This document shows positions 1 to 20,696 of a stretch of DNA of 64,000 nt, one piece after another. The number at the start of each line of letters is the position of its first letter. Position 1 is the stretch's first letter. Position numbers and translations under genes: made by a program. The DNA comes from Streptomyces sp. NBC_01788 (lineage in GTDB: Bacteria > Actinomycetota > Actinomycetes > Streptomycetales > Streptomycetaceae). Under the pieces are notes generated by a model. That model was not told where the DNA came from, searched no databases, and saw only the letters and a program-made list of their open reading frames with translations. Where the stretch lies: positions 8,205,446-8,269,445 of the forward strand of contig NZ_CP109090.1 of the NCBI RefSeq assembly GCF_035917575.1, read 5' to 3'.

Positions 1-367
1 CTGGCCCTGGGTCCAGGAGAACGACCCCGCCGCGGCCGAGCGCATCGCCGAATGCCGCAAGGCCGCCGAGGAGATCGGCGCGTGCCTCGATGCCGTCTCT
101 TCGGAGGCCTGGGGCAAGGTCACCGCCGGCGCGCCCCGTCACCTGCCGCCCTGGACCCGCACCGCGCGCACCCTGTACTGGCCCCGCGCCGAGGCCACCT
201 TCTGGAGCCTCCTGGACGGCGACCCCGCCCGCAGTGCACGTGCCGCGTTCGCCACTGACGCCATCGCCGCACTGCGCACCGCCACCCGCCCGGCGATCGC
301 CCAGCACTTCCGCACCGGCGAAGCCGTCGCCGTCGCCGTAGCCCAGCTGCGCCTGCGCAGCCACTGA
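1..367 (+). CDS. cas8e: Cas8e (Cse1/CasA), C-terminal fragment
   Basis: The reading frame enters from the left edge in frame 2 and stops at 365-367, giving the last 121 residues of a larger protein. It is predominantly helical and contains a tract reading TLYWPRAEATFWSLLDG, which resembles the C-terminal four-helix bundle of type I-E Cas8e, the Cascade subunit that recognises the PAM and, in canonical systems, recruits Cas3. The assignment rests mainly on position: it directly precedes cas11, cas7e, cas5e and cas6e in canonical I-E order on the same strand. The N-terminal PAM-sensing part lies outside the window, so it cannot be judged whether the Cas3-contact surface is kept. Confidence 0.8.
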   Translation, partial: WPWVQENDPAAAERIAECRKAAEEIGACLDAVSSEAWGKVTAGAPRHLPPWTRTARTLYWPRAEATFWSLLDGDPARSARAAFATDAIAALRTATRPAIAQHFRTGEAVAVAVAQLRLRSH

Positions 368-413
368 CCTTTCCCCTCCACCTTCCCGTCCTCTTGCCGA
401 AGGCTGCCGCACC

Positions 414-1085
414 ATGCCCGTCACCACTGCGCAACGCCGCGCCCACTACGACGACTTCGTCCACCAGGTCATCACCCTGTGCGCGGTCAACAGCATCCGC
501 GCCGACCTCGCCTCGAGCTTCGGACGCCCCGTCGCGGAGTGCCCGCGGATGCCCGAACACCTCACCCGGCACATCGCCGGTTTCGGAGCGCGCCGCGCCC
601 ACTACACCGTGGCCGGCCTCATCGCCCTGCACCGCGACCTGCCCCACGAAGACGACCCCTACCAACCCGAACTGCTCATCCCGGACCCCGGCAAGAACCG
701 GGACAGCCCCGCCGTACCGGACGCCACCCGCGCCGTCTCGCCGCAGCACGTCCAGCCCCTTGCACAACCGGCCACGCCTGCGCAGCCCTGGCGCAGCCGC
801 CCCGATCTCGGCACCCACCTCGCCATCGCCGTGGCCCGGTACGGCTTCAAAGAAGCCAGCATGACCAACCGGGTCAAGGTCCTCACCGGACTCGACACGT
901 CACTGCTGCACCCGCAGCTGTGGGCACTGGCCGGCCACCTGCACAGCCGAGGCGCCGCCCGCTTCGACTTCGCCGTCCTCCTCGAGGACCTGGCCTGGTG
1001 GGACGACGACCGGATGAAGATCGCCGCCCGCTGGCGCGAGAACTACTTCCTCGCCCTCCACACCCTCAACCTCACGGAGCACTGA
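414..1085 (+). CDS. cas11: Cas11 (Cse2/CasB), Cascade small subunit
   Basis: A 223-residue protein in the position of the type I-E small subunit, which lines the belly of Cascade and stabilises the R-loop. The helical, Arg-rich C-terminal part (WALAGHLHSRGAARFDFAVL followed by a WWDDDR segment) fits Cse2, although at 223 residues it is somewhat longer than most. A Pro/Ala-rich linker around residues 80-125 probably separates two helical halves. The ATG start follows cas8e by 46 bases and the stop precedes cas7e by one base, so expression is coupled. Identification relies on gene order as much as on sequence, because Cse2 is poorly conserved. Confidence 0.82.
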   Translation: MPVTTAQRRAHYDDFVHQVITLCAVNSIRADLASSFGRPVAECPRMPEHLTRHIAGFGARRAHYTVAGLIALHRDLPHEDDPYQPELLIPDPGKNRDSPAVPDATRAVSPQHVQPLAQPATPAQPWRSRPDLGTHLAIAVARYGFKEASMTNRVKVLTGLDTSLLHPQLWALAGHLHSRGAARFDFAVLLEDLAWWDDDRMKIAARWRENYFLALHTLNLTEH

Positions 1086-1086
1086 C

Positions 1087-2268
1087 ATGGCCGCCTACGC
1101 CCCCGCCCGCTACGCCGACTTCCACGCCCTGCACCCGGTCGGCGCCTCCCTCCTCAACCGAGGGCAGGACGACCTGCCCAAAACCATGGAATTCGGCGGC
1201 GTCGTCCGGCCCATGGCGTCCTCCCAGTCCTGGAAGCGGCCCGTCCGCCTGTGGCTGGAGGAAGTCCTCGACGAGCACGCTGCCCGCACCCGCAAGGTGC
1301 CCCTGAGGGTGGCCGACAGGCTGCGCGCAGCCGGCTGGCCCGACGCTCTCGCCGCTTTCGCCGGAGCCCAGATCGTGCGCTCGGCCACCCGGGAAGGACT
1401 GAAGACCGAGGAAAACCAGAACGGCATCACCTCAGCCACCCTCTACCTGCCGCGCGACGTCCTCGACGACTTCACCGCCCTGTGCACCGAACACCGCCCG
1501 CAGCTCGAAGAAGCCCTCGCGGCCCATATCGCCGAACAGGCCAAGCCCAAGGCCAGGAGGACCAAGCCGGACGCCGTCCTGCCCACCCGCACGGTCACCG
1601 CACTCATCCGCCGCCGCACCGCCACCATCAACCTCTTCGGCCGCATGCTCGCCGAGATCAGCGGCGCCCACGTGGACGGCGCCGTGCAGATGGCACACGC
1701 CTTCACCGTGCACCAAGGCGCCTCCCAGCCGGACTACTTCACGGCGGTGGACGACTGGTCGGATCACGACGAAGCCGGAAGCGCCCACCTGCAGACCGCG
1801 TTCTTCACCAGCGGCCTGTTCTACCGCTTCGCCACCGTCAACCTCACCGAACTGACCCGCAACCTGGACGGGGACCACAAGCAGGCCCTGCACCTGCTGG
1901 CCCTGTTCGCCGAGGCCTTCGCCGACGCCATGCCCGGCGCGAAGAAGACATCCACCGCCCCGCACACCTACCCGCACCTCATCCACTACGCGATCCGTGA
2001 CCGCCGCTCCGTCTCCTACGCCGGCGCATTCGAAAAGCCCGTCAGGCCCGCCCACGGCGGCGGCTACACCGCCCCCGCCGTCCACGCCCTGTCCGAGCAC
2101 GCCGGCCAGCTGAACCGGATGATCGGCACCCGCCGTCTCATCGGCTCCGGCTACACCGCCCTCCAAAGCGAGCCCGTCGACCACCTCGGCACCGCCCATG
2201 CCAGCCTCGACGACCTCATCGACGCGCTCGCCGAGACGGCCGCCCTGCCCTCGGCCGCGACCGTATGA
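1087..2268 (+). CDS. cas7e: Cas7e (Cse4/CasC), Cascade backbone
   Basis: A 393-residue protein matching the I-E Cas7 family, which polymerises along the crRNA as the six-copy Cascade backbone. Supporting features are an N-terminal tract with NRGQDDLPKTMEFGGVVR, which corresponds to the usual Cse4 'NRD..G.PK....GG..R' signature, and the late YASGxx-like MNGILL junction with cas5e. Length is close to typical for the family. It begins one base after the cas11 stop, and its stop overlaps the cas5e start as ATGA, so the effector genes form a tight translationally coupled operon. Confidence 0.92.
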   Translation: MAAYAPARYADFHALHPVGASLLNRGQDDLPKTMEFGGVVRPMASSQSWKRPVRLWLEEVLDEHAARTRKVPLRVADRLRAAGWPDALAAFAGAQIVRSATREGLKTEENQNGITSATLYLPRDVLDDFTALCTEHRPQLEEALAAHIAEQAKPKARRTKPDAVLPTRTVTALIRRRTATINLFGRMLAEISGAHVDGAVQMAHAFTVHQGASQPDYFTAVDDWSDHDEAGSAHLQTAFFTSGLFYRFATVNLTELTRNLDGDHKQALHLLALFAEAFADAMPGAKKTSTAPHTYPHLIHYAIRDRRSVSYAGAFEKPVRPAHGGGYTAPAVHALSEHAGQLNRMIGTRRLIGSGYTALQSEPVDHLGTAHASLDDLIDALAETAALPSAATV

Positions 2269-3056
2269 ACGGCATCCTGCTGCGCCTGGCCGCGCCCCTG
2301 ATGTCGTTCGGGGAACACGCCGCCTTCCACTACCGCGACACCCTCCCTTTTCCCTCCCGCTCGGCCCTCATCGGCATGTTCGCTGCCGCCGACGGACGCG
2401 CCCGGGAGGAAGCCCTCGCACCCGACCCGGCCACCGGCAAAGTCCCGTACACGGACCTGGAGTTCACCGTCCGCGTCGACCGGCCCGGCACCCGCCACAC
2501 CGACTTCCACACGGTCGGCGGCGGCCGCGGCCACCAGAAGGGCTTGCACACCAGCAGCGGCGCGTACCGCCCCGCGGAGAAATCCACCCTCGTCAGCGAA
2601 CGCGTCTACCTCGCCGACGCCGTCTTCACCCTCGCCGTGCAAGGCCCCGACCGGCTGCTGGAACACCTCGTCCACCGGCTCGAACAGCCCGCCTTCGCCC
2701 CCTACCTGGGCCGGCGCGCCTGCGTCCCCCACGAGCCCCTCGTCCTGCGCGGCCCGCACCCCGACCCCGTCGGTGAACTCCGTTACCACGTCCCGCTCGC
2801 CCTGAGCGCCCCACCCGGCCCCGGGCACAGCACCGTGCCGGTCACCTTCGTCTGGGAACACCCGCCCTCCCACGTGCCTGCCGCGCACAGCGAACGCGAA
2901 GTCGCCGACGTCCCCAACGACTTCACTCCCACACGGCGCTTCCACAAGACCCGCCGTACCTGGCACACCACCGAAGACCTGCCCGCCGCCCTGTACGCCC
3001 CACCCCCCGCACTCACCGAACTGACCGCCTACATCCACCAGGACGCCACCCCGTGA
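2265..3056 (+). CDS. cas5e: Cas5e (CasD), crRNA 5'-handle binding subunit
   Basis: A 263-residue RAMP protein. It starts with the typical Cas5 beta strand and 'APLMSFGEHAAFHYRDT..FPSRSALIGM' arrangement (residues about 8-40), in which the conserved PS(R/K)S.(L/I)(I/V)G(M/L) helix is clear. A later segment near residues 110-130 with ERVYLADAVFTLAVQG is also as expected. Cas5e caps Cascade at the 5' handle of the crRNA. The ATG overlaps the cas7e stop by four bases, and its stop overlaps the next GTG start. No truncation or frameshift is visible, so the effector complex appears intact. Confidence 0.92.
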   Translation: MNGILLRLAAPLMSFGEHAAFHYRDTLPFPSRSALIGMFAAADGRAREEALAPDPATGKVPYTDLEFTVRVDRPGTRHTDFHTVGGGRGHQKGLHTSSGAYRPAEKSTLVSERVYLADAVFTLAVQGPDRLLEHLVHRLEQPAFAPYLGRRACVPHEPLVLRGPHPDPVGELRYHVPLALSAPPGPGHSTVPVTFVWEHPPSHVPAAHSEREVADVPNDFTPTRRFHKTRRTWHTTEDLPAALYAPPPALTELTAYIHQDATP

Positions 3057-3763
3057 CCAGCACCCCAACCGCCGCCCTCGCCACCACAGCGACACTGACC
3101 CGCATCCGCCTCAACCGCCGTAGCCCGGCCGCCCGCCGTGACCTGGCCGACGCCGTCAGGCTGCACAAGAGCGTGATGCTCCTGGCCCCCGACGACCTCG
3201 GCGAAAACCCCCGGCAGCAGGCCGGCCTGCTCTTCCGCCTGGAAGACGCCACCGACGACACCCCACCCACCCTGCTCGTCCAGTCCCACCAGCCGCCCGA
3301 CCTCACCCGCCTGCCCCACCACTACGGCACCGCCGAAACCCGACCCCTGCACCCCATGTTCCAGGCCCTGACCCCCGGCCGAGCGGTGCGCTACCGCATC
3401 ACCGCCAACGCCAGCGCCGCCCGCCGCGTCCTGGACGACCACCACCCCGTCGACAACAAGCACGGCCGGAAAATCGTCGCGCTCTACGGCGACGACGCCC
3501 TCGCCTGGTGGCAGCGCCGCGCCCACCAAGCCGGCCTCACCCTGGCCACCACCGACATCACCCCCGCCCGCTTCCCCCGCGCACGCCGCCGCGCCGACAA
3601 GCCCGGCGAACAAGCCCACTCTCCCGGCCCCATGCACGCACTGACCCGCTTCGACGGCCTGGCCACCATCACCGACCCCGACCAACTCAGCCACGCCCTG
3701 CTCACCGGCATCGGCCGCGGCAAGCCCTACGGCGCCGGCCTGCTCACCCTCGCCCCCGCCTGA
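3053..3763 (+). CDS. cas6e: Cas6e (CasE), crRNA-processing endoribonuclease
   Basis: A 236-residue protein that starts with GTG overlapping the cas5e stop (GTGA). It has the double-RRM layout of Cas6e: an N-terminal LTRIRLNRRSPAARRDLADA tract followed by RLHK, whose His (about residue 38) sits where the catalytic His is found in characterised Cas6e enzymes. The C-terminal glycine-rich loop GIGRGKPYGAGLL (about 217-230) is the Cas6 signature. It should cut pre-crRNA repeats and stay bound to the 3' hairpin. An intact Cas6e implies that an array is used, though none is visible in this window. A 48-base gap then leads to a transposase gene instead of cas1. Confidence 0.92.
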   Translation: MTSTPTAALATTATLTRIRLNRRSPAARRDLADAVRLHKSVMLLAPDDLGENPRQQAGLLFRLEDATDDTPPTLLVQSHQPPDLTRLPHHYGTAETRPLHPMFQALTPGRAVRYRITANASAARRVLDDHHPVDNKHGRKIVALYGDDALAWWQRRAHQAGLTLATTDITPARFPRARRRADKPGEQAHSPGPMHALTRFDGLATITDPDQLSHALLTGIGRGKPYGAGLLTLAPA

Positions 3764-3811
3764 CCCACCCGCGCCCCCCGACGTCCACCACCCCAAGAAA
3801 GACCCCGACGC

Positions 3812-5398
3812 GTGCCCGCCACACCACCACCCGACGGCCCCTACGACACCACCTCCCTGCGCGCCGCCGCCGTACGCCGCCTACTGCGCCTGCGTAATGC
3901 CGAACGCCTGACCCACTACGACGTGCGTACCGTCGCCGCCGCCTTCACCGTCCACTGGCGCACCGTGCGCCGCTGGATGGACAACGCCACCACCCACAAC
4001 GGCACCTACACCCCCCAAGGCCGCCGCCACTTCACCCTCACCCCGGCCATGCACGAAGCCCTGGCCCGATGGAACGGCAACGCCGCAGCCACCTACCGCG
4101 AACTCGTCGGCGATGGCATCTTTGGCAACCCGCCCCGTGTATCCCAGGCAACCTTTTACCGCGCCGTAGACCGGGAACTCACGCCCGGCCAGCGTGCCGC
4201 CCTCAGAGGAGGCGAAGCCGCCCGCCGCCGACACGACGTGCACGCCCTGCGCCCGCACGGCAACCGCAACGACGTATGGGAGACCGACCACGTCGAAGCC
4301 AGCGTCTTCGTCAACATCGACGGACGCCGCCGCAAACCCTGGATCACCTGGTTCATCGACCACACCACCGCCGTCATCTGCGGTCTGGCCATCACCCCCC
4401 ACCAGCCCAGCCAGGACGCCATCCTGGCCGCCGCCCGCGACGCCATCCTCTGCACTGATCACCACCGGCCCTTCGGCGGCATCCCCCGCAAGATCCGCAC
4501 CGACCGCGGCCGCGACTTCCTGGGCAAGTGCGTGGACGAAGCGTTCAAAAAGTTCGGCACCGAACTGATCGTCCTGCCGCCCTACAGCCCCCACCTCAAA
4601 GGCACCGTCGAAGCCATCAACGGCGCCGCCAAGCACATGCTGTTCAAAGGACTGCCCGGCTACGCCCACACCCCCCGAAGCCGCCGCGACCGCCGCGGCC
4701 AGCCCCTATGGGCCCTTCACGAACTCCTCGACTACGAAACCTTCATCACCATCGTCCTCGACTGGGTGGACTGGTGGAACAACGACCACACCATCGCCCG
4801 CCTCCACCGGCGCACCCCCGCCCAGGCCTGGCACGCCGACCTCACCCCCATCGACACCCTCGACCCCGCAGACCTGCACACCTACACCCTCACCGACGCC
4901 GGCCCACCCCGGAAGATCACCAGCAAGGGCGTCCGCTGGAAAAGCGCCTACTACGTCGGCGACTGGATGCACGGCCACTCAAGCGCCGGCGAGATGGTCC
5001 GCCTGCGCCACGAACCCCACCACTACCACCGCGTCGAGCTCTACGACGCCGACACCCTCACCTACCGCGGCCCCGCCTTCCGCAGCGACGAAATGAGCCC
5101 CCGCCAAGCCCGTGCACTGCACAACGCCCGCCGACGTGAAGCCGACCGCTACGCCGCCAAAGCCCGCCGAGCACGCAAAAACGCCACACCCCGCTACGCC
5201 GCCACCAGTGTCACCGCCGCGCCCGAACCCCTCAACCGGCTCACCGCCAGCCAGGCAGCCGCCCAGCTACGCCAGTTGCAGACACCGGAAGGCCACCTGC
5301 ACGCCGAAGCCCGGCCCGACCTCCTCAACCGGCCCCAGCCCGACTCCGCCCGCTGGACCAAACCCCGGCCCGACCCCAAACCCCAGGACACCGAGTGA
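3812..5398 (+). CDS. TnsB/TniA/MuA-type DDE transposase linked to the type I-E operon
   Basis: A 528-residue integrase-core (rve) transposase. An N-terminal helix-turn-helix region (about 30-60, TVAAAFTVHWRTVRRWM) and a second DNA-binding domain precede the catalytic core. The acidic triad is visible as D159 (WETDHVEA), D231 (IRTDRGRDF) and E267 (LKGTVEAIN), the last pair spaced as D-35-E. A Mu-type C-terminal beta domain follows (about 370-435), then a basic, coiled Arg/Ala tail. This architecture is that of TnsB/TniA/MuA proteins, which cut and join transposon ends. It starts with GTG 48 bases after cas6e on the same strand, and its stop overlaps the next gene. Position suggests that a Cascade complex directs it, as in CRISPR-associated transposons; that link is inference. 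Confidence 0.88.
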   Translation: MPATPPPDGPYDTTSLRAAAVRRLLRLRNAERLTHYDVRTVAAAFTVHWRTVRRWMDNATTHNGTYTPQGRRHFTLTPAMHEALARWNGNAAATYRELVGDGIFGNPPRVSQATFYRAVDRELTPGQRAALRGGEAARRRHDVHALRPHGNRNDVWETDHVEASVFVNIDGRRRKPWITWFIDHTTAVICGLAITPHQPSQDAILAAARDAILCTDHHRPFGGIPRKIRTDRGRDFLGKCVDEAFKKFGTELIVLPPYSPHLKGTVEAINGAAKHMLFKGLPGYAHTPRSRRDRRGQPLWALHELLDYETFITIVLDWVDWWNNDHTIARLHRRTPAQAWHADLTPIDTLDPADLHTYTLTDAGPPRKITSKGVRWKSAYYVGDWMHGHSSAGEMVRLRHEPHHYHRVELYDADTLTYRGPAFRSDEMSPRQARALHNARRREADRYAAKARRARKNATPRYAATSVTAAPEPLNRLTASQAAAQLRQLQTPEGHLHAEARPDLLNRPQPDSARWTKPRPDPKPQDTE

Positions 5399-6264
5399 CC
5401 CACCCGACCACCACGCCCGAGAACCAGCCGACCGCCGGCCCCAACTACCACTACATGGGCCTACCCGGCGCCCGCGCCATGCTGACCCAGGCCAGCGCAG
5501 AGACCTACGCCAACCTTGTCACCACCCTCAACGCCGACGCCGGCAAGGGCGCCATCATGTGCGTCCACGGCGGCGTCGGCCTGGGCAAGACCTTCGCCGT
5601 CAACAGCCACCTCGACGACCTCGCCCCCCACACCACCCTGCGCATCAAAGTCGGCTCCGCCAAAATCCAGGCCCTGCGCGCCGCCCTGTACAAAAAGCTC
5701 GACCTGCCCGGCGAGGCCCCCCTCAACAGCACCCGCTGCGAAACCATCCTCAAGGAAGCCCTGTCGGAAACCCCGCGCGTCCTGGTCGTCGACGAAGCCC
5801 AGTGGCTCGACACCCGGGCCTTCGAATTCATCCGCGAGCTCTGGGACGACGAAGACACCCGCCTCGCCGTCGTCCTGGTCGGCGCCGAAACCTGCTACCA
5901 GAAGATCAAAAACCGTCCGGCGCTGGACTCCCGCATCCTCGTCTGGCAGCGCTACAAGCCCCTCACCCCGGCCGAAGTCCTCACCGTCATCCCCGAATAC
6001 CACCCTCTGTGGGCGGACGTACCCACCGACGAACTGCTGTGGATCGACGACGTCGCCTGCCACGGCAACTTCCGCCAGTGGGCCAAAATCACCTACCTGC
6101 TCCAGGAACAGCACGGCGGCCCCGGCTCGATGGGGGCCGGAAGCACGGGGCCGACGAACCCGCCCACTCCACACGACGCGGCCGCACCGCTCCCTCCCTA
6201 CAGCCGGGACCTCATGCGCGCCGTCCTCAGCCGCCTCGACCCCACCCAACGTCACACCGACTGA
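5395..6264 (+). CDS. TnsC/TniB-type AAA+ ATPase (transposition regulator)
   Basis: A 289-residue AAA+ ATPase. Walker A is GGVGLGKT (residues 59-66) and Walker B is VLVVDEAQW (129-137); a sensor strand VVLVGAE follows. The size and the VDEAQ form of Walker B match TniB/TnsC/MuB-type transposition regulators, which form filaments at the target and activate the DDE transposase. GTG overlaps the transposase stop (GTGA), so the two are translationally coupled. In described CRISPR-associated transposons this protein bridges TniQ-Cascade and TnsB. No TniQ gene is visible here. The gene ends 26 bases before a convergent toxin-antitoxin operon. Confidence 0.88.
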   Translation: MTHPTTTPENQPTAGPNYHYMGLPGARAMLTQASAETYANLVTTLNADAGKGAIMCVHGGVGLGKTFAVNSHLDDLAPHTTLRIKVGSAKIQALRAALYKKLDLPGEAPLNSTRCETILKEALSETPRVLVVDEAQWLDTRAFEFIRELWDDEDTRLAVVLVGAETCYQKIKNRPALDSRILVWQRYKPLTPAEVLTVIPEYHPLWADVPTDELLWIDDVACHGNFRQWAKITYLLQEQHGGPGSMGAGSTGPTNPPTPHDAAAPLPPYSRDLMRAVLSRLDPTQRHTD

Positions 6265-6290
6265 AGCGCCGCCCCGGCGTCTGGGCACAT

Positions 6291-7427
6291 CTAGCCCGCG
6301 GTGAGATCGCCGGAGAGGCTGATCTCGATGGGGCGTTTGAGTTTGCTGCCGTATTTCCAGTCCAGGACGCCGTCGTGCTGGAGGCGTCCGACGACGATGC
6401 CCGGGGCGATGCCGGCCCGGCGGGCGAAGGCTGTGATGTTGGTGAAGGGCATAGGGCGCTGGGCGAGTTGCTTGTAGGCGGCCGCGTGCTCGGGGGGGAT
6501 GAGGGTTTCCCTGGCGAATGCGTCGGCTTCGTCCTCGCTGCGGTCTCCTTCGGGGGTCGTGTCGTCGTCGCGGTTTGTGTTGTCGATGAAGGTGAGGCGT
6601 TTGCCGTGCAGGAGGACATGCCCGAGCTCGTGGAAGACGGTGAACCAGAAGTGGTCGTCCTTCTTGAACCGGCCGCTGAGGGCGACTCCGACCTTTTCCG
6701 GAGTGAGCCATCGGGTGACGCCGGAGACGCGGCTGTTGGGGGGTGCGGCAACGAACACCACCGCGACGCCGGCCTGGGCGCACAGGTGCGGGATTTCGGT
6801 GCGCCAGACGGCGGGTTCCTCGACGGTCAGGGCGCGTAGCTGGGGGAGTAGCTCAAGCAGGGCTGCACGGTCGTAGGGTGCGCAGGGGATTTCGCGTGCT
6901 CTGAGTTCGGCCTGGCGCAGCCAGACGGCGGTGGCATAGTCGTCGGGTGTGAGGACGGTGGAGCGCCGGAAGGCGGTCCGGTAGCTGCCCCACACGTTCT
7001 CTGCAACCTCGGGGTCGGCGACACCGAAGAACGCCAGCAGATGCTCGAGATTGTCCACCGTGCGCTCTTTGGTCGGCAGGATGCCCCGCTTGACCAGCTC
7101 CTGCAGGGAGAAGCGGTCGAGCCAGTCGAGGCGGTGGCTGAGAGCTTCACGGCTCTGGGTGCGGCTGACGTGGGTGCGCCAGGCGGCCTCCATCTGGTTC
7201 CACAGCGAAGCCGGGATTCCAACGGCCCGCTCCAGCAGAAGGGCAGTCTCGGGGGTGAGGACGGCGCTGCCTTGGACGATCTGGTTGATGTGCTTGGTCG
7301 ACAGTCCGGTGCGGCGGGCGAGGTCCGCCTGGGGGATGCCGAGGGCGTCGAGCTGTTCTTTCAGTGTGTCGCCCGGAGGCAGGACTTCATCCGGTGCGAA
7401 CGGGTGCGGGGCGGAGGGCGGAGTCAC
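6291..7427 (-). CDS. HigA-type XRE antitoxin fused to an ImmA/IrrE-type metalloprotease
   Basis: A 378-residue two-domain protein. Residues about 20-75 are a HigA-like helix-turn-helix (GIPQADLARRTGLSTKHINQ, with the 'VLTPETALLLERAVG' and 'PASLWNQMEAAWR' tail typical of VapI/HigA antitoxins). Residues about 195-330 hold a zinc-protease domain with HELGH at 266-270 and a downstream DEADAFARE helix that supplies the third ligand, as in ImmA/IrrE. Such proteins repress their own operon and may degrade or be controlled by a partner. It starts with GTG behind a GAGAGG ribosome site, 49 bases after the HigB-like gene on the same strand. Confidence 0.85.
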   Translation of the reverse strand: MTPPSAPHPFAPDEVLPPGDTLKEQLDALGIPQADLARRTGLSTKHINQIVQGSAVLTPETALLLERAVGIPASLWNQMEAAWRTHVSRTQSREALSHRLDWLDRFSLQELVKRGILPTKERTVDNLEHLLAFFGVADPEVAENVWGSYRTAFRRSTVLTPDDYATAVWLRQAELRAREIPCAPYDRAALLELLPQLRALTVEEPAVWRTEIPHLCAQAGVAVVFVAAPPNSRVSGVTRWLTPEKVGVALSGRFKKDDHFWFTVFHELGHVLLHGKRLTFIDNTNRDDDTTPEGDRSEDEADAFARETLIPPEHAAAYKQLAQRPMPFTNITAFARRAGIAPGIVVGRLQHDGVLDWKYGSKLKRPIEISLSGDLTAG

Positions 7428-7476
7428 GTGAGTGCCTCTCGGTCGGCGAGGCTGCGGGGCGGGCCTGGTGGCGGGG

Positions 7477-7851
7477 TCAGGGGCGGTGGATCGCTGCGAC
7501 GATCACACCGCGTACGGCGTGCTCGTTCAGGGTGCCGTCGTCGAGGGTGTCGGGCGGGTCGTCGCGCGGGCGGACCACGAGATCGCCGTGATCACCGAGC
7601 GACACCAGCAGAGTGAAGCAGTCCCCGTTGGCTGCGGGCCGCAGCCGCGTGGCCGCAATGTGCCGCAGGTCAGCCAGGTGGTGGGCGGCCGACATCTGGC
7701 CAAGACGCCGGAGCAGGGTGGTCGCTCCGTCGGGGCCTAAACGGTCCCTGCGGGCAGGGCCGTTGTTGCAGACACGGGCGAGCTCGGCGTCCTCGAAGAC
7801 GATCTCCACCAGCGACCTCAGAATCCTTTTCCGTTTACCTACTGCTTCCAT
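7477..7851 (-). CDS. HigB/RelE-family toxin (killer-protein type)
   Basis: A 124-residue protein resembling the HigB/RelE mRNA interferase fold: VEIVFEDAELARVCN at the start, a middle LLRRLGQMSAAHHLADLRH helix, the RLRPAANGDCFTLLVSLG strands and a final RGVIVAAIHRP strand. These toxins cleave mRNA on the ribosome. ATG at 7851 is preferred because GGGAGG lies 6 bases before it; a GTG at 7875 is weaker. The order is toxin first, antitoxin second, as in higBA. It is divergent from the CBASS operon, with about 110 bases between. The AT-rich run just upstream suggests the higBA promoter is there. Confidence 0.75.
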   Translation of the reverse strand: MEAVGKRKRILRSLVEIVFEDAELARVCNNGPARRDRLGPDGATTLLRRLGQMSAAHHLADLRHIAATRLRPAANGDCFTLLVSLGDHGDLVVRPRDDPPDTLDDGTLNEHAVRGVIVAAIHRP

Positions 7852-7965
7852 GTTATCCTCCCGATCAAGGTCCACAAGATTTCATGCACCTGCTGGGTAA
7901 ATGAAACTGTGGAGTAGGGTGTGGCCTGTGTTACCGCCGGCCGCTGGAGATCTGGAGGACAGCTC

Positions 7966-8106
7966 ATGGCAGGCAAGCGCAGCGCATCCAACGGCCAGCG
8001 GGGCCGCAGCGCCGTCACGGGCCGGTTCGTGAAGCAGGCCACCGTGAAGCGGCACCCGAAGACGACGACCAATGAGAGCGCCGGCAAGGGCGGCAGGAAG
8101 AAGTAG
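7966..8106 (+). CDS. Small basic protein preceding CBASS genes
   Basis: A 46-residue, strongly basic, Ser/Gly/Lys-rich protein with the core RSAVTGRFVKQATVKRHPKTT. GGAGG lies 6 bases before the ATG at 7966, which argues for real translation. Similar short 'R(S/T)xxxGRxV...xxHPxTT' proteins are, from memory, seen in front of other bacterial defence genes, but I know of no assigned function. It is 93 bases upstream of the CD-NTase on the same strand and probably is co-transcribed. It has no membrane segment and no catalytic motif; a nucleic-acid-binding role is only a guess from charge. Confidence 0.6.
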   Translation: MAGKRSASNGQRGRSAVTGRFVKQATVKRHPKTTTNESAGKGGRKK

Positions 8107-8199
8107 GCGGCCATGCCCCTCGCAGCCGACCTCGCATTGTCAGTGGTGTGAGGCAAGCTCGGCAGGCCGATGCAGTCACAACCAGGATCGGAGGGCCCG

Positions 8200-9204
8200 A
8201 TGGCTCACCTCAAGCAGCAGTTCAAGGATGCGCTGAGCTCCATCGAGCCCGGCGACGACAAGACCAACGCGCCAGAGGCGCATCGCCTCGTCCGTGACGC
8301 CCTCAAGGCTGACTCCAAGCTCGCCGAGTACGGCGTCAGCCCGATCCTGATCGGCTCCTACAAGCGCAACGTGTCGATCCGGAGGATCAAGGACGTCGAC
8401 GTGTTCGTGCGCCTGCCCGATGTTCCGAGCGACGTCACGTCGACGGACATCCTCGACAGATTTTTCAAGGTCCTGCATGCGGAGTTCGGCACCGACGCCG
8501 ACGGGCACCGGCGCACCAAGCGGCAGGATCGTAGCCTGCAGGTCTCCTTCCCGGAGTACGACCTCTACGTCGACGCGGTGCCCGCCCGCCCCTACGGCGA
8601 CGGAACGTGGGAGATCCCGCAAAAGGGCGACGAGAACGAGTGGGTGCGCACCAACCCCGACGGGCTGACGGACCTGTCGAGCACGATGAACGCGGACCAC
8701 GACGAGTACTACGTACCGACCATCAAACTGCTTCGTCAGACGCGTCGCGCCCTGCTCGGCACGAAGAAGCCCGGCGGATTCTTCATCGAGATGGCCGCCT
8801 ACCAGGCGTTCGCCTCAGGCGCAGTCTCGGGCAACTACCAGGCGGAGTACTACGTCAGCGCACTCCGGGAGGTCAGCAAGATCATAGATAACTTCGTGAC
8901 CTACGGCATCGCAGTGACCGACCCGACACTGCCCGGGCACACCATCCGCATCCGCGCGACCGACGACGAACTGGACACCGCGCGGACGCGGTTCACCGAC
9001 GCCGCAGCGTCGGCAGAAGCTGCGCTCGACGAGGAGGACGCGGGCAAGGCCGCGCTGGCGTTCCGGAAACTGCTGGGAACGAACGGCGATGGGGACACGG
9101 TCTTTCCGATGCCCCCCGGCTTCAACGAGGACGGCAGCAAGAAGGCATCCGCGATCTCGCCCGGCGCCCGCGTCGTTCCTGCCGGCAAGAGGACCTTCGG
9201 GTGA
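8200..9204 (+). CDS. CBASS CD-NTase (cGAS/DncV-like nucleotidyltransferase)
   Basis: A 334-residue nucleotidyltransferase. The active site is GSYKRNVSIRRIKDVDVFV: the GS of the Pol-beta fold at 52-53, metal-binding Asp at 65 and 67, and a third Asp in LYVDAVPA (126). It should make a cyclic oligonucleotide messenger upon phage infection. ATG 8200 is chosen over 8170 because GGAGG lies six bases ahead. The C-terminus ends in a glycine (KRTFG), which matters because in type II CBASS the Cap2 enzyme joins the C-terminal residue of the CD-NTase to targets. The stop overlaps the Cap2 start (GTGA). The exact nucleotide product cannot be read from sequence. Confidence 0.92.
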   Translation: MAHLKQQFKDALSSIEPGDDKTNAPEAHRLVRDALKADSKLAEYGVSPILIGSYKRNVSIRRIKDVDVFVRLPDVPSDVTSTDILDRFFKVLHAEFGTDADGHRRTKRQDRSLQVSFPEYDLYVDAVPARPYGDGTWEIPQKGDENEWVRTNPDGLTDLSSTMNADHDEYYVPTIKLLRQTRRALLGTKKPGGFFIEMAAYQAFASGAVSGNYQAEYYVSALREVSKIIDNFVTYGIAVTDPTLPGHTIRIRATDDELDTARTRFTDAAASAEAALDEEDAGKAALAFRKLLGTNGDGDTVFPMPPGFNEDGSKKASAISPGARVVPAGKRTFG

Positions 9205-10667
9205 CCCCTGTCGGCTTCGACGAGTATGTCGCCTACGCGCGGCAGCACTTCGAGGAAGGCCTGATCCGCGCCGGGTTCCGCGAGGTTGAAGCAAGATGGG
9301 AAGGGCCGGTCCCGCACTCGGCGGTCACGACCCGCGTCGTGATCGACCTGCCGCCCCGTTTCCCGTTTCTGCCGCCGAGAGTGGCGCCGGTCGAGCACGA
9401 CGCGGTGCCCTGGTCCTGGCACCGCGACCCGGACGGCGGTCTGTGCCTGGTCGCCGAAGATGATCATGAAGGGTTGTGGTGGACGGAGGCACCGGCGTTC
9501 CTGGAACACGTCACAGCGTGGTTCGAGCGCGCGGACATCGGCTGGACGGGCGATCGGCCAGACCTCGACCTCGACCGGTACTTCCAGCCGTCCGCGGACC
9601 GGCGCCTTTATCTCTACGGCGGCCTCGGCCAGTACCTCAACCGCTCCGTCCGCTTCAGCCCGTCCAGCAACAACACGATGCGGATCAGGAACGGCAGCCG
9701 CCCCAGGAAGGCCCTTGAGCACAGTAAGGACCGCTTCGGGTATGTAGCCGACCTCGGCGAGGTGGACGTGCCGCCGCGAACCTGGGCAGACATCTCCGCC
9801 CGGCTCGGCTCGAACACGGAGCTAGACCGCAGAATTCGTCAGCAGTCGGTCGCAGCTGTCGTGCTGATCTACCGACGCGGCACCCACGAGGGCGCGATCG
9901 TGCTGGACGTAGCGTCCACGAAGGAGGGCGGCACGGCCGTCACACGTCTGCGCTCGGGCGCAGACACCGAGGCAGCCCGGTCCGCTCGTGCAGGCGTCCT
10001 CGCCCCCGCACTGCGTGAATCCAGGGTCGCAGTCGTCGGCGTCGGCGCTTTGGGATCGTTCATTGCCGACATGCTGGTGCGCTCCGGTGTCCGTTACCTC
10101 ACTCTCATCGACGACGATGTCGTCATGCCGGGAAACCTCGTTCGCCACCTCGTGGGCCACGACACGGTCGGGCTGCCGAAAGTCGAAGCGGTCAAGCGAC
10201 ACCTCGTTAGGCAGAACGAGGCGCTGGCCAGCGGCATCGGCATCATCAATGGCGCGCTTACCTCGGGCGCTGACGCGGTTGACCATCTGCGGAACCACGA
10301 CCTCGTCGTGAACGCCACCGCCGACTTCGCCACCACGGCGCTCCTGCACGTAAGCGCCCGGACAGTAGGCACACGGGTCCTGTCCGCGGCGCTTCAAAAC
10401 GACGGCAGGACCTATCGCATCGACGTACTGCCACCGCTCGGCGATGCCGCACCGCTGCCGCCTTCGACGACCAGAGCCGATACCGAGGCACCGCTACTGT
10501 TCGAAGCAGGCTGCGGAAGCCCTATCTCCCCAACGCCGCCCCACGCGGTGATCGAGGCAGCAGCGGCAACCGTCCGACACGCCATCGGCCTCCTCGTGGA
10601 GAGTCCACTCCATCCTGCTGGGGAGACGCGTCACCTCCACTCCGCATCACAAGGGAGCCACCAGTGA
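9201..10667 (+). CDS. cap2: Cap2-like E2-E1 fusion, CBASS ubiquitin-transfer enzyme
   Basis: A 488-residue fusion. Residues 1-120 are an E2-like domain with DLPPRFPFLPPRV and the catalytic Cys in GGLCLV (C82). Residues about 265-480 form an E1/ThiF adenylation domain with the nucleotide loop VVGVGALGS, then LTLIDDDVVMPGNLVRHL and the crossover Cys in FEAGCGSP (C438). In type II CBASS this enzyme adenylates the CD-NTase C-terminus and conjugates it, priming signal synthesis. GTG start overlaps the CD-NTase stop, and the stop overlaps the next gene, giving a three-gene coupled operon. All expected catalytic residues are present. Confidence 0.9.
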   Translation: MTPVGFDEYVAYARQHFEEGLIRAGFREVEARWEGPVPHSAVTTRVVIDLPPRFPFLPPRVAPVEHDAVPWSWHRDPDGGLCLVAEDDHEGLWWTEAPAFLEHVTAWFERADIGWTGDRPDLDLDRYFQPSADRRLYLYGGLGQYLNRSVRFSPSSNNTMRIRNGSRPRKALEHSKDRFGYVADLGEVDVPPRTWADISARLGSNTELDRRIRQQSVAAVVLIYRRGTHEGAIVLDVASTKEGGTAVTRLRSGADTEAARSARAGVLAPALRESRVAVVGVGALGSFIADMLVRSGVRYLTLIDDDVVMPGNLVRHLVGHDTVGLPKVEAVKRHLVRQNEALASGIGIINGALTSGADAVDHLRNHDLVVNATADFATTALLHVSARTVGTRVLSAALQNDGRTYRIDVLPPLGDAAPLPPSTTRADTEAPLLFEAGCGSPISPTPPHAVIEAAAATVRHAIGLLVESPLHPAGETRHLHSASQGSHQ

Positions 10668-12442
10668 CCCGGCCGGCACCACGGATCGAGCTGCGCCAGG
10701 AGGCATACGAGGCCATCGCGTCCGCGACCGCCCGGCAGCTGCCGCGGGAAACGGGTGGCATCCTCCTCGGCTACCGGGAAGACGCCAACCTCGCTGTCAC
10801 TCATGCCCTCGTGGTCGACGGACAAGGAGCGTCCACCCACAGGTACGTGCGCGATGACGTCAGGGCGAACGCGCTCCTCGCAGAGTTCCTTGCAGAGCGA
10901 GTGGATGACGATCCAACCGGCTACGTCGGCGAGTGGCACAGCCATCCGGCACCGTCCGGACCGAGCTCGATAGATGTTGCTGCGATGCGGGCAACAGCCC
11001 GGGAGCACGACGGCCCGATCGCACTCCTCGTTTACGCTCCCGGCGGGGCGGATCCCTTCTCCGGACTGATCGCGCGGCGCCAACGATGGGGACGTGTCAC
11101 CAGCAAGGCAGCAACGGTCCTTCCGCCACCACAGAGATTCGAGGCGCTGGGGCCACTGCCCGAATATGCGGTTCGGCGTGACGGCGCGGTGTTCATCTCC
11201 TACCGGCAGTCGGATGGCTCCCCGCAGGCCGATTCGATCGAGAACTTGCTCAGGGCAGCCGGTCTCGTCGTGTGGAGAGACCGTACCGACCTGCGCCCAG
11301 GCACGACGACCGATCGCCTCGAACAAGCCCTGACCACAGGGCTTTCGGCAGCCGTGCTCGTCGTGACACCGGAGATCGTCCACAGCGACATCGTCCGAGA
11401 ACGTGAGCTGCCTCGGCTGCTTCAACTGGACGAGGACCCCGCCTTCAGCCTGTGCATCGCGAATAAGATCGCCAGAGCGGGAAGCAATACACAGTGCGAC
11501 TACGAGGCACCGGACCGACTCCTGAGACTCGTTCCCTCTCGGACCCTCGCCGACAAGAAGCAAAGCAACATGCTGCAGCCGTCCGGCGAGAGCGAGATCG
11601 TGCGGGACCTGCTGATGCACCGAGTCGAACAACGTAAGTCCGCCATCCGCAGCGAGAACCGCGCCTTCACGATCCGAGTACAGACCCGTCCCGCGCCCTT
11701 CGCCATGGACGCGGGCGAGGACGACCTGCACATCCGCATCAGATCCGCCGGCGACGGAGGTCTGCCCTCGCGCGAGGGACTCACGCTCCTGCAGACCACG
11801 CTGCCTCTGGTCAGCGACGCCGTGTACGCAGCCGATGCGAAAGCGGTACGCGTCTCCGGCGGAGCTCACCTGTCGGTAGCGCTGGCCTTGGGAGCGGCCC
11901 TGCCCGAGACCAAGATCGGCAATGTCGAGGTGGTCGATACCCTCGGCGCTCTGTGGACGTCCACAGAAGCTGGTGACGACCCGCTGACCAGCGAACTTCA
12001 TACGCAACCAGTTGACCTCGAACAAGCGGATACGTGCGACAGCCACGACCGCATCGCGATCTTCGTCAGCCTGACTGCCGCTCCAGATCGGACCGCATTC
12101 GAGCAGCTCCTGCACGAGTCCAGCGACGGCTTCGCGGCGGCCGCCGTAGTCTCCGTCGCCGACGAAGACCGACTCGACCCGCGCGAGGCCGCACGCCTCA
12201 GCGCGGCTGCCGCGCAACAGATCAAAGCGCTGGCCGCACGCAGCGGCCGTGCGGAGGTGCATCTCGCTTTCCACGGCCCGTACACGATGGCCCTACTCGT
12301 AGGGCGATACCTCAACACGCTGCGTACCGTCGTCTACGAGTGGGACGGCGCGACCCCTGGGAGGCCCCGCTACACCCCAGCTCTCGTGCTTGAGCCAGGT
12401 GTGGCTGGCGGACCGATCACCCAGGTCCTGCTCGGCCAATAG
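10664..12442 (+). CDS. JAB (Cap3-like) - TIR - SAVED fusion, CBASS effector
   Basis: A 592-residue protein with three domains. Residues about 8-130 are a JAB/MPN peptidase: E30 in ETGGILLG and the JAMM motif EWHSHPAPSGPSSID (H92, H94, S101, D104). Residues about 173-265 are a TIR domain (GAVFISYRQSD, VVWRDRTDLRPG, then SDIVRERELPRLL with candidate catalytic Glu). Residues about 335-592 are a SAVED domain ending in HLAFHGPYTMALLVGR and VVYEWDG. Cap3 normally removes Cap2-made conjugates; TIR-SAVED effectors bind a cyclic nucleotide, assemble and destroy NAD+. Here regulator and killer sit in a single chain. Start GTG overlaps the Cap2 stop. Domain calls are by motif; the fusion itself is read directly from one uninterrupted frame. 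Confidence 0.88.
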   Translation: MTRPAPRIELRQEAYEAIASATARQLPRETGGILLGYREDANLAVTHALVVDGQGASTHRYVRDDVRANALLAEFLAERVDDDPTGYVGEWHSHPAPSGPSSIDVAAMRATAREHDGPIALLVYAPGGADPFSGLIARRQRWGRVTSKAATVLPPPQRFEALGPLPEYAVRRDGAVFISYRQSDGSPQADSIENLLRAAGLVVWRDRTDLRPGTTTDRLEQALTTGLSAAVLVVTPEIVHSDIVRERELPRLLQLDEDPAFSLCIANKIARAGSNTQCDYEAPDRLLRLVPSRTLADKKQSNMLQPSGESEIVRDLLMHRVEQRKSAIRSENRAFTIRVQTRPAPFAMDAGEDDLHIRIRSAGDGGLPSREGLTLLQTTLPLVSDAVYAADAKAVRVSGGAHLSVALALGAALPETKIGNVEVVDTLGALWTSTEAGDDPLTSELHTQPVDLEQADTCDSHDRIAIFVSLTAAPDRTAFEQLLHESSDGFAAAAVVSVADEDRLDPREAARLSAAAAQQIKALAARSGRAEVHLAFHGPYTMALLVGRYLNTLRTVVYEWDGATPGRPRYTPALVLEPGVAGGPITQVLLGQ

Positions 12443-12790
12443 GCGCGGCGATACACGCGCAGTGTGCTGTCCCGTCTCGCTCTGGCGCGCACAAAAGAGC
12501 CAGCGACCGAGCGCGAGAGCCCGCCAACCTCGGAGGGTGGGGCTCCTTTCGAGGGACAGGATGAGCTGGACATTTGCCGGTTCGGTTCGACTGCCGGTCA
12601 TGGAGATCCTTTCGAAGCCAGCAGGTCACGCCCACCCGCCGGATCAAGGACAACAGCGCGGGGGCGCGGGTTACCGCGCGGGCCCCTGTGGTGGTCGAGT
12701 CGATCACTCGGGGACGACGCATCCGAAGCCGAGGATTGTCGCCGGTCCCGGTGCATGGCCTAACCCACCATGAGGCCGGGCCGGGGGTGA
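12443..12790. other. Gap after CBASS, with a possible second IS remnant
   Basis: No convincing gene. A short frame opens at ATG 12561 behind a GAGGGACAGG sequence but has no recognisable product. The stretch at 12541-12570 resembles the 5' leader of the adjacent ISKra4-type element (about 12806-12836): both read GG.TCCT then AGGGA.AGG then TGAGCTGGA. This could be the remains of a related, more decayed copy. No terminator-like hairpin is obvious after the CBASS stop. Confidence 0.3.
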
Positions 12791-14252
12791 ACCCCGAAGG
12801 GCGCGGTTCCTCTGAAGGGAAAGGTTGAGCTGGAGGAACACCTCGACGCGGCCGGGCGAGAACTGCTTCGCCTGCTGCTGCAGGACCACCTGGACCTGCG
12901 GGCCAGGCAGGAAGAGAACCAGGTCCGCGCCGGTGCCGGCCCGGCGGTGACCGGGCCGGAGGGGCGGGTGCGGCCCTGGCGGGAGGCTGGGCACTCGCGG
13001 TGGCTGGCCAGCGTGTTCGGGATGGTCCGGGTCACCCGGGTCGCCCACCGTGGGCCGGGCATGGGCAACGTCCACCCCGCTGACCAGGAGCTGTCCCTGT
13101 CTGCAGGCCGGCACTCGACGGGACTACGGCGGCTCGCTGTCACCGAGGCCGTCCACGGCTCTTTCGACCAGGCCCACGACGCGGTGACACGCCGCTGCGG
13201 GAACGTGCTCGGCAAGTGCAGGCTGGAAGAGCTCGTGGTCGCTGCCGCGGTCGACGTCGACGGCTCCTACCGGACGAGGATCCCCATCCCGTGCCCGTGC
13301 AGCCGCGAGATGCCGCTGGTGGTCCAGGTGGACGGCAAGGGCGTGGTCATGCGCCTGGAGGCACTGCGGGAGGCCACCCGCCGGGCCGCCGCCAGGACAG
13401 CTGGTGGCCATCGCGGCCGGCTCGCGCCGGGTGAGAAGCCGAACCGCAAGCGGATGGCGACCGTGGCCTGCGTCTCCGACACTCGTCCGGCGCGCAGGCG
13501 TCCACACGATGTGATCCACCCGCCTGGCGGCCGAAGCGGCGAACGCCCCGCCCGCCCGGGGCCCAGGGCAGAGAACAAGTGGTGCACCGCCTCGCTGGTC
13601 CGCCCGCCCGAGCAGGTCATCGCCGATGCCTTCGACCAGGCCCAGGCACGCGACCCGAAAAATTTAAGGCCGTGGATCGTCCTGGTCGACGGCGCCCGCC
13701 ACCAGCTCGACGTGATCAGCGCCGAGACCGGCCGACGCGGCGTCACGGTCCACGTGCTGCTGGACTTCGTGCACGTCGCCGAGTACGTCTGGGCCGCCGT
13801 CCACGCCTTCCACAAACCGGGCACCGCCGAGGCCGAGGCATGGGCGGCCGACCGTCTGACCGTGATCCTCTCGGGCCACGCCGCTCGCGCTGCCGCCGAG
13901 GATGACCGCCCAGGCGAAGCGGGAACAACTGTCAGCCGCCCGGCGCGAGGCCATCGACGCCTGCCACAGCTACCTGACCGGCCACCTCGATGAGCTCCAC
14001 TGCGACACCGCGCTCGACAACGGGTGGCCGATCGGCACCGGCGCGGTCGAGGGCGCCTGCCGCCACCTGATCGCCGACCGCCTCGATATCACCGGCGCCC
14101 GATGGGGCCTGCCCGGAGCCGAAGCCGTCCTGCGACTGCGCGCCATCGTTTCCAACGGCGACCTCGATCCCTACTGGCGCTTCCACGCCGCACGTGAGCA
14201 CGAACGCCTCTACCCCGCCCCGGACCAGCGGCGGTTGGACCTCGCCGCTTGA
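12791..14252 (+). pseudogene. ISKra4-type transposase, frameshifted
   Basis: An uninterrupted frame from 12791 to 13993 and a second frame from 13902 to 14252 together make one transposase. Its N-terminus reads ELEEHLDAAGRELLRLLLQ, the middle WIVLVDGARHQLD with a DDE-like Asp and LLDFVHVAEYVWAAVHAFH, and the C-terminus LDNGWPIGTGAVEGACRHL, the classical ISKra4/'GTGAVEG' block. The frame change falls near 13900, within a segment reading GHAARAAAEDD in one frame and MTAQAKREQL in the other. No ATG/GTG start with a ribosome site is evident at the 5' end. Terminal repeats and target duplication could not be found by eye. It is probably inactive. Confidence 0.8.
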
Positions 14253-14364
14253 TCACGGGACTGCTTGCGGACAGACTGCGACCTATGAGGTTCACAGGCG
14301 TGCCCACCGACGCGCAGACCACCCGCGTCGACGCGGCTTGCTCCTTGCCCAGGCAGGCTCGCCG

Positions 14365-14898
14365 GTGAGCGCCAATCTGCCCTCCTTCCGCTACCACCCC
14401 GAACCCGTCGCAAGCGGATCCATCCGCGAGAGTGCCGAGACCTGCGCCTGCTGCGCGCGCAGCACCGGGTGGATCTACACCGCGGCCTTCTACACAGCCC
14501 AGGACGTCAGCGGGCAGTTCTGCCCCTGGTGCATCGCCGACGGCAGCGCCGCTGAACGATTCGAAGGTGAATTCACCGACTCATACGGGCTCGACGGTGT
14601 CAGCGAGGAGACCCTGGAGCACGTCACCCGCCGCACCCCCGGCTTCCACGCCTGGCAAGACCCGCACTGGCTCGTCCACTGCAACGACGCAGCCGCCTTC
14701 ATCGGCGAGGTCGGATACGCCGAACTCGCCGCCCACCCCGACGCACTCGACCAGCTTCGAACCGAATTGCGGATCGGCGGTTGGCACGACGCATCCCGGC
14801 TCGAGAACTTCCTGACCCACCTCGGGCAGGGTGCGAGCGCCATGCTCTTCCGCTGCACCGTCTGCGGCACCTACCTCGCCTACGCCGACGCTTCATAG
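14365..14898 (+). CDS. CbrC-family (UPF0167-type) protein
   Basis: A 177-residue protein beginning LPSFRYHPEPVASGSI, with a CxxC pair (ETCACCARSTGWIYTA), FCPWCIADGSAAERFEGEF, a central TPGFHAWQDPHWLVHCNDAAAFIG and a C-terminal FRCTVCGTYLAYAD. These features match the CbrC/UPF0167 family, named for a colicin-tolerance gene of E. coli; molecular function is not known. Four CxxC-type pairs suggest zinc binding. GTG 14365 is chosen because family similarity starts there; upstream in-frame codons derive from the IS flank. It stands alone on the plus strand. Confidence 0.75.
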   Translation: MSANLPSFRYHPEPVASGSIRESAETCACCARSTGWIYTAAFYTAQDVSGQFCPWCIADGSAAERFEGEFTDSYGLDGVSEETLEHVTRRTPGFHAWQDPHWLVHCNDAAAFIGEVGYAELAAHPDALDQLRTELRIGGWHDASRLENFLTHLGQGASAMLFRCTVCGTYLAYADAS

Positions 14899-16652: not shown

Positions 16653-16680
16653 CGCGCACCGTCCGTCCGGGGCCTGAACT

Positions 16681-16744
16681 GGTGTATGCACCCTACCCTT
16701 TAATCGTCATCATGACGATAACCGGGGGGTGTATGCACCTACCC
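16681..16744. promoter_or_regulatory. Palindromic operator between direct repeats, upstream of the DUF2971-like gene
   Basis: A perfect inverted repeat with 8-bp arms ATCGTCAT and ATGACGAT around one base (16703-16719) sits between two direct copies of GGTGTATGCACC(C)TACCC at 16681-16698 and 16728-16744. This symmetric layout right upstream of the minus-strand gene looks like a regulator site with its core promoter. The AT-rich core contrasts with its surroundings. The binding protein is unknown. Confidence 0.5.
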
Positions 16745-20682: not shown

Positions 20683-20696
20683 CGTCGGATGGTGGG

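Follow-up and report, generated by a model that had tools for sequence, protein, structure and literature searches.

A type I-E CRISPR-Cas operon joined to tnsB and tnsC at the tip of a linear Streptomyces chromosome, with guide matches in telomere-proximal genes

Gene content of the locus

The DNA analysed here is a window of 64,000 bp from Streptomyces sp. NBC_01788 (contig NZ_CP109090.1; G000:C1:8205446-8269445), which forms the last 64 kb of a linear 8.27 Mb chromosome assembled as a single contig of 8,269,445 bp. Its left edge cuts into an operon of clustered regularly interspaced short palindromic repeats (CRISPR)-associated (cas) genes, in which a type I-E Cascade is followed by tnsB and tnsC (Table 1). 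This gene arrangement is already known and fits the variety termed I-E5; what is added here is the guide targets, the protospacer adjacent motif (PAM), the strand and the element end, as predicted from sequence.

The open reading frames (ORFs) run in the same order from the end of cas8e through cas11, cas7, cas5 and cas6 to tnsB and tnsC, and all are intact after the left edge. Pfam and NCBIfam models name the products Cse1 (C-terminal piece), Cse2, Cas7/Cse4, Cas5e, Cas6e, rve with Mu-transpos_C, and AAA_22, and profile searches found a complete type I-E Cascade in the locus. TnsB is the top PADLOC match of the transposase (6.4e-13), whose triad, with 35 residues between the last two members, is invariant in all 24 cas-linked copies; the ATPase carries Walker A (GGVGLGKT) and Walker B (VLVVDEAQ) motifs. 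A preliminary description of this DNA had named the seven genes with their coordinates and junctions (one base, 4-base overlaps and a 48-base gap), had recognised a D-D-35-E transposase with an AAA ATPase, and had placed this pair where cas1-cas2 usually sit; the ORFs, profile searches, PADLOC match and motifs agree with it on all three points. It had also held that an intact cas3-cas1-cas2 set in the locus would speak against a transposon: cas3 is intact, while cas1-cas2 are not in the locus.

Table 1. Features of the window and of the CRISPR arrays to its left, with profile matches where available.
Feature	Coordinates	Strand	Remarks
cas8e, 3' part	2..367	+	whole gene L005:13574-15367, starting ~1.4 kb left of the window; Cse1 profile 7.3e-54 on whole gene
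cas11 (cse2)	414..1085	+	PF09485 4.5e-10
cas7 (cse4)	1087..2268	+	TIGR01869 1.3e-72; one base after cas11
cas5e	2265..3056	+	TIGR01868 2.5e-46; 4-base overlap with cas7
cas6e	3053..3763	+	TIGR01907 8.5e-16; 4-base overlap with cas5
tnsB-like DDE transposase, 528 aa	3812..5398	+	rve and Mu-transpos_C; 48-base gap after cas6; triad D159-D231-E267
tnsC-like AAA+ ATPase, 289 aa	5395..6264	+	AAA_22 3.5e-17; 4-base overlap with tnsB
Proposed element cargo, tnsC to terminal helicase	6265..60882
Terminal DEAD-box helicase, ttrA-like	60883..63393	-	reads inward, 607 bp from chromosome end; helicase-associated domains PF03457 1e-47
Chromosome right end, proposed right element boundary	63394..64000		terminal palindromes (by eye)
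Five CRISPR arrays left of the window	L006: 4412-4562, 8750-9080, 17299-17659; L005: 1394-1770, 6017-6328		all in one orientation

Left of the window, the adjoining stretches L005 and L006 hold the remainder of cas8e, a gene combining NACHT and sugar-transferase domains, a full cas3 and five CRISPR arrays. The cas3 product keeps its HD, DEAD and Cas3 C-terminal domains (PF18019 9.3e-38; HD motif at residues 80-81). The gene between cas3 and cas8e (L005:9517-13020) encodes a 1167-residue fusion of a NACHT STAND NTPase with a bacterial sugar transferase inside the cas operon, and it has no counterpart at that place in any other fetched locus. A T5orf172/MUG113 (GIY-YIG-like) gene (L005:2162-3121) is flanked by two of the arrays. 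An Rfam scan of the left flank gave no family reaching its gathering score.

Conservation and evolution of the operon

Among 80 relatives whose loci were fetched by TnsB alignment, cas genes adjoined tnsB in 22, and 17 of the 80 also had the five Cascade genes plus cas3, which in some is clipped at the locus edge. In all 17 full relatives tnsB and tnsC come after cas6. A second set of 20 stretches, overlapping partly with the first 80, had cas genes beside tnsB in 7. Such an arrangement goes far beyond what chance would give. A tree of 92 TnsB proteins, from which duplicates and fragments (L089, L090, L092, L093, L094, L096, L098 and L102) were omitted, contains a fully supported branch that parts all 24 cas-linked proteins, together with that of L011, from 67 stand-alone ones; the contig of L011 starts 26 bp ahead of tnsB. 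On the simplest reading of this tree, the pairing of cas genes with tnsB and tnsC would have arisen once and then been retained.

Ratios of nonsynonymous to synonymous substitution rates (dN/dS) against the three nearest relatives were 0.14-0.21 for tnsB and tnsC, 0.27-0.31 for cas3 and cas8, and 0.30-0.60 for the other cas genes, whereas against the more distant L088 tnsB (0.35) and tnsC (0.47) were no longer below cas3 (0.38) and cas8 (0.29). Maxima were 0.58 for cas7, 0.86 for cas11 and 0.96 for cas6, and the values of cas3 and cas8 ranged over 0.27-0.38. In comparisons with L008, L010 and L015, the stretch from cas6 to tnsC (window 3053-6264) is 94-98% identical and that from cas3 to cas5 81-89%, which suggests that the cas6-tnsB-tnsC block may have been exchanged separately from cas3-cas5.

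Boundaries of the proposed element

To the left of the arrays, L006:1609-4104 is ~89% identical to stand-alone tns elements (L069) and 83% to L077, and the likeness ends at 4104 in both. Right after this position comes a sequence starting TGCGACTTCTCATTGCGATGTCAC; four TnsB-like sites, two of them direct and two inverted, come ahead of the first CRISPR repeat. Genome G091 has the same start and site layout, G251 has them in partly degenerate form, and G118 has a more divergent version that starts where sequence common to 25 other fetched loci stops; a candidate end starting with TGC and carrying TnsB-like sites is thus present in four genomes in total, one of them divergent. A scan of the window at ≤2 mismatches gave no second end motif. 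On the simplest reading, the putative element would start at 8174549, run for 94.9 kb to the tip and enclose the whole window. The locus most likely sits in a predicted Tn7-like telomeric transposon of ~95 kb.

The terminal helicase of the window is likened to ttrA by its place and domains; the available text on ttrA describes it as terminal, read inward and required for SLP2 conjugation (PMC8743542). The helicase shares 28% identity with the terminal helicase of plasmid CP109195.1. At 62092 the guide of a relative matches its gene with 3 mismatches, and none of the genome's own guides does so at ≤9 mismatches. In a merged BLAST, window 44038-64000 has matches of up to 100% in a set of sequences whose members include this chromosome's own first 20 kb, which suggests terminal inverted repeats of perhaps 20 kb or longer. 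Within the proposed cargo lies a cyclic oligonucleotide-based antiphage signalling system (CBASS) operon (8170-12442) of a cyclase, E1-E2 and a JAB-TIR-SAVED effector, and next to tnsC on the minus strand (6291-7427) a gene for a helix-turn-helix (HTH) and M78 peptidase protein with PD-Lambda-2_B as its top PADLOC match. Two relatives carry a second cluster of TnsB-like sites between cas3 and cas8e (L010:4456-4547 and L015:4459-4545) that may represent a former end or a regulatory region.

TniQ, TnsA and Cas1

TniQ matches in the NBC_01788 genome stand at 8171524 (above the cut-off) and 8164038 (below it), both left of the element end. The same search gave none in G091, G118 and G251, and its sensitivity rests on the NBC_01788 match because the named control genomes also gave none. 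The TnsA search had no match either, and this is no evidence of absence because its controls were likewise without one.

The cas1-cas2 module of a canonical type I-E operon is not in the locus, where tnsB-tnsC occupy its usual place; the sole Cas1 found in the genome lies 2.1 Mb off at 6109489, and Cas2 had no search of its own. This Cas1 (G000:C1:6109489-6110472) belongs to a second, ordinary type I-E system, whose array (L233:1422-4500) was used as a control. With the Cas1 of that ordinary locus as query, none was found in 20 of 23 carrier genomes, several of which are drafts, and the three with Cas1 were NBC_01788 itself and the genomes of L015 and L021. With the Pfam Cas1 model the count was 3 of 21.

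CRISPR arrays and repeats

From more uniform repeats on that side in relatives, and from the repeat handle, we infer that the leader side of the arrays points toward cas3. The repeat-spacer unit is mostly 61 nt, with spacers of 32-33 nt. Over all pairs the I-E5 repeats are 70-83% alike; the 49 repeats of the genome's ordinary I-E array are 99.1% alike. Repeat stems are paired in 94.7% of cells against 93.9% in shuffles (as high in 4 of 500), and double-changed stem cells number 6 against 1.7 (reached by 2 of 500), a modest sign of putative compensatory change. Few neighbouring repeats are identical, and in some genomes in which Cas1 was not found, such as those of L091 and L023, the repeats near the leader resemble one another more than the distal ones do. 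One spacer, L027_1310, seems by eye to have acquired a putative stop codon compared with a coding sister.

An AAG PAM and a 61-nt repeat-spacer unit mark type I-E, and regular units are a signature of Cas1-Cas2. Both marks are present here, and the arrays seem to bear traces of Cas1-Cas2 work while seemingly no longer being renewed in most carriers. Insertion by a Tn7-type transposase produces a 5 bp stagger and not a copy of a 28-29 bp repeat, which counts against TnsB and TnsC as a spacer integrase. In L091 a leader-like sequence stands three times by eye (near 4085, 4555 and 5613), which suggests duplication of arrays together with their leaders inside that one locus. Two CRISPR repeats lie downstream of tnsC in S. 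ipomoeae (L012:6081-6170).

Guide matches near replicon ends

At ≤6 mismatches, 38 of 154 regular spacers matched the fetched loci and none of the 154 did so when reversed. Five of the best 29 matches were to other arrays; in 19 of the remaining 24, whose targets are partly shared, TT stood on the PAM side (equal to 5' AA(G)), and the PAM predicted from these matches is AAG. In a set of 209 spacers, which excludes the arrays of L090, L092, L098 and L019 that repeat other genomes, 50 guides match telomere-proximal genes, namely the ttrA-like helicase, tnsB and tnsC, and the matched genes lie no more than 35 kb from replicon ends.

Against the left ends of 20 chromosomes, at ≤6 mismatches, these 209 spacers gave 29 matches in the outermost 20 kb, spread over 8 of 20 stretches, a further 22 between 20 and 40 kb, in 6 of 20 stretches, and none at 100-120 kb or at 1000-1020 kb of the same chromosomes. 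Twenty further end stretches gave 108 matches (14 of 20), and reversed spacers gave none in all five stretch sets. The 20 chromosomes are not random, 15 of them carrying a tnsB relative, and the 20 further ends come mostly from tnsB-bearing genomes. As a control, the 46 spacers of the genome's ordinary I-E array had no match at the ends and none in 56 loci from the tnsB search (nearly all stand-alone tns), with one weak match at 1000 kb. A single 20 kb plasmid end from S. cynarae collected 19 matches from the arrays of 9 genomes, in the helicase, tnsB, tnsC and genes of a second tns operon.

A plasmid search covered 72,556 records, and its rows are not independent events. Streptomyces made up 81/82 matched records for L091, 113/113 for L023, 61/66 for L088, and 5/10, 22/38 and 64/72 for three arrays of NBC_01788; the rows from Klebsiella, Thermus and other genera look like repeat matches. 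The leader-side guide of NBC_01788 has a perfect match (33 of 33 bases) in the terminal helicase gene of several linear plasmids. Positions were counted for 25 of 40 listed rows of this guide (72 records), 14 of 30 of the second NBC_01788 array (38 records), 54 of 60 of L091 (82 records), 59 of 60 of L023 (113 records) and 34 of 40 of L088 (66 records); rows omitted are mostly long or repeat-like matches, and those omitted from L091 also include H53-H56, some of them ordinary guide matches. For the leader-side guide, 22 of 25 rows stand ≤3 kb from the record end, with 3.2 expected within 10 kb. Rows ≤10 kb from an end number 42 of 54 for L091 (8.7 expected), 40 of 59 for L023 (8.7 expected) and 7 of 14 for the second NBC_01788 array (2.2 expected). 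One L088 guide (L088:7026-7061) has its matches in a helix-turn-helix gene carried by many linear plasmids; most of them lie 39-51 kb inside, with a polarity opposite to that of the other guides.

Polarity of the matches

At ≤4 mismatches the PAM lies on the interior side for 22 of 25 guides, regardless of the strand of the target gene, and the other three all belong to L029/L030. At ≤5 mismatches the counts are 32 interior, 6 telomeric and 1 mixed, and at ≤6 they are 38, 9 and 3; several guides share targets, and by our own count the independent sites number ~15. Plasmid rows ≤40 kb from an end have the PAM inward in 51/52 (L091), 52/53 (L023), 11/13 (second NBC_01788 array), 23/23 (NBC_01788 leader-side guide) and 7/8 (L088). 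Guides of one array mostly share a strand, and the clade L029/L030 shares the opposite one.

A CRISPR-associated transposon (CAST) inserts on the PAM-distal side, which with this polarity would land the insertion between target and telomere. Cas3 travels away on the PAM side and would run into the replicon. In primed acquisition new spacers are taken on the primed strand, giving one strand per lineage, and such an origin would fit the reversed guides of L029/L030 best.

Discussion

CASTs of types I-F3 and I-B likewise combine a Tn7-like transposase with Cascade, with PAM-distal insertion expected; unlike the present locus they have TniQ and TnsA and no Cas3. Type IV systems in plasmid conflict likewise set CRISPR on a mobile element against competitors, with another effector, no Tn7-like transposase and targets beyond telomeres. 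The closest relative is I-E5, which the available text of Makarova et al. (2025; PMC12669027) treats as a CAST variety of telomeric transposons with an active HD domain in Cas3 and a possible dual function, crediting the founding work to Hsieh et al. (2025). As in that account, the locus has a type I-E Cascade, Cas3 with an intact HD domain, TnsB and TnsC in the operon without TniQ or TnsD in the element, and a telomeric position, in which one specific candidate end would be paired with the telomere as the other boundary (chromosome end at 64000); the end sequence, guide targets, PAM and strand, in contrast, were worked out here. Among the matches listed in a literature search on I-E5 as a telomeric CAST, PMC12669027 alone mentioned I-E5, and by title and the start of the abstract none of the papers returned for CRISPR spacers, linear plasmids and telomeres in Streptomyces dealt with such targeting. 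The same cas3-cas8e-cse2-cas7-cas5-cas6-tnsB-tnsC order, without cas1-cas2 in the locus, is described for Streptomycetaceae in excerpts of PMC12231136 and PMC8730458, the former crediting Faure et al. (2019) with the hypothesis that TnsB and TnsC act in adaptation, as a spacer integrase in place of Cas1-Cas2. Transposon ends were reportedly not found in that work, whereas here a candidate end is common to four genomes and the units look made by Cas1-Cas2.

These comparisons bear on the preliminary description, which was not aware of a described I-E version; at the sequence level this has been superseded (PMC12669027), function being untested in the excerpted text of those sources. Its link between a Tn7-like transposase and Cascade stands, and the gene order, which it had proposed to check in other actinomycetes, is conserved (now as eight genes, the 17 full relatives included). 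Its proposal that Cascade may steer insertion rather than cleavage is not supported: Cas3 is intact, no protospacer above the chance level was found at the four junctions, and the search for TniQ was negative in three of four genomes, the fourth having it only outside the element. Of the features it had listed for a search to the left, cas3, five arrays and a candidate end 95 kb from the tip were found, and tniQ only outside the element.

The reading in which we place moderate confidence is that I-E5 guards the chromosome tip by a predicted Cascade-Cas3 attack on core genes near the telomeres of competing linear plasmids and telomeric transposons. TnsB and TnsC would mobilise the element itself, CRISPR RNAs from the hairpin repeats would load Cascade, and Cas3 would destroy the rival end. 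The same-strand guides would be a record of primed acquisition by Cas1-Cas2, which would now be missing from most carriers. The genome's own guides have no match in its left 20 kb (≤6 mismatches) or in the window (≤9 mismatches), as both this model and a takeover of rival tips require.

Several observations weigh against a guarding role. At ≤6 mismatches, 159 of the 209 guides have no end match, and two guides of NBC_01788 match a site ~108 kb from its own tip, with 6 and 7 mismatches and without a PAM. Of the 34 plasmid rows of L088 only 2 lie ≤10 kb from an end, against 1.5 expected, and among its rows up to 60 kb from an end inward PAMs fall to 8 of 23, mostly through one guide 39-51 kb inside; because these rows are mostly one guide, the result leaves the standing of the readings unaffected. 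Strand coherence is equally compatible with orientation-limited insertion, the place of tnsB and tnsC after cas6 in all 17 full relatives suggests a joint role, and the decayed repeats suggest that part of the arrays may be dead. The arrays of L091 and L088, those sent against phages, had no match there, and neither did the ordinary array used as control, so the lack of phage targets proves nothing. Old guides may also be detectable only at ends, because terminal genes are conserved in linear replicons and guides against the variable plasmid interiors would be unrecognisable.

A tentative alternative, which we consider rather unlikely, is RNA-guided telomere takeover, in which Cascade would mark a site near a rival tip, TnsB and TnsC would insert a single end on the telomere side, the element's own telomere would replace the old one, and Cas3 might remove the displaced end. 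The classing of I-E5 as a CAST variety in the accessible part of PMC12669027 favours it, as do the end bias of guide matches and the retention of tnsB and tnsC in the cas operon. Outside L029/L030 all 22 guides at ≤4 mismatches would place a CAST-type insertion between target and telomere, the plasmid rows of four arrays agree in polarity (rows that are not independent), and two of the four elements start inside sequence common to stand-alone tns elements, the class targeted by their guides. However, when the 400 bp inside each of the four element ends were compared with the 209 guides, the best hits had 9-11 mismatches, as in random 400-mers (8-12), so that no protospacer was found at a constant spacing from an insertion, though an original guide could have been lost. 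The L029/L030 guides point the opposite way (3 of 3 at ≤4 mismatches, 5 of 5 at ≤5), and the L088 rows within 60 kb are mostly not inward. Defence of the tip is ranked above guided takeover because Cas3 is intact, no junction protospacer beyond chance was found, three of four genomes gave no TniQ match and one clade is reversed. A slightly more doubtful form joins the two activities: guides of fixed polarity would mark the last few to 35 kb, and Cascade-Cas3 would cut the rival end while TnsB and TnsC join the element end, in an RNA-guided telomere exchange.

That the locus is a relic, formerly active but trapped in a telomeric element and now decaying, with tnsB and tnsC as its only working part, is improbable. 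Repeats only 70-83% alike, the apparent stop codon in L027_1310 and the high dN/dS of cas7, cas11 and cas6 would agree with decay, but the lower values of cas3 and cas8, the pairing and double changes of the repeat stems, and the perfect-match guide of NBC_01788 speak against it. Least likely is the adaptation role, for which the failure to find Cas1 in 20 of 23 genomes and the more uniform leader-side repeats of L091 and L023 could be cited, but which is opposed by the Cas1-Cas2 signature of regular 61 nt units, 32-33 nt spacers and AAG PAM, by growth at the leader side, by degenerate repeats with few identical neighbours, and by a shared end that contradicts the published absence of flanking ends.

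Defence of the tip and its takeover are made separable by the mapped guides, PAM, polarity and element end, which also bear on the idea of TnsB and TnsC in adaptation. Ownership of the tip decides the maintenance and exchange of linear bacterial genomes. If the guides act, CRISPR would here serve a contest over telomeres, in which incoming rival ends are destroyed or replaced.

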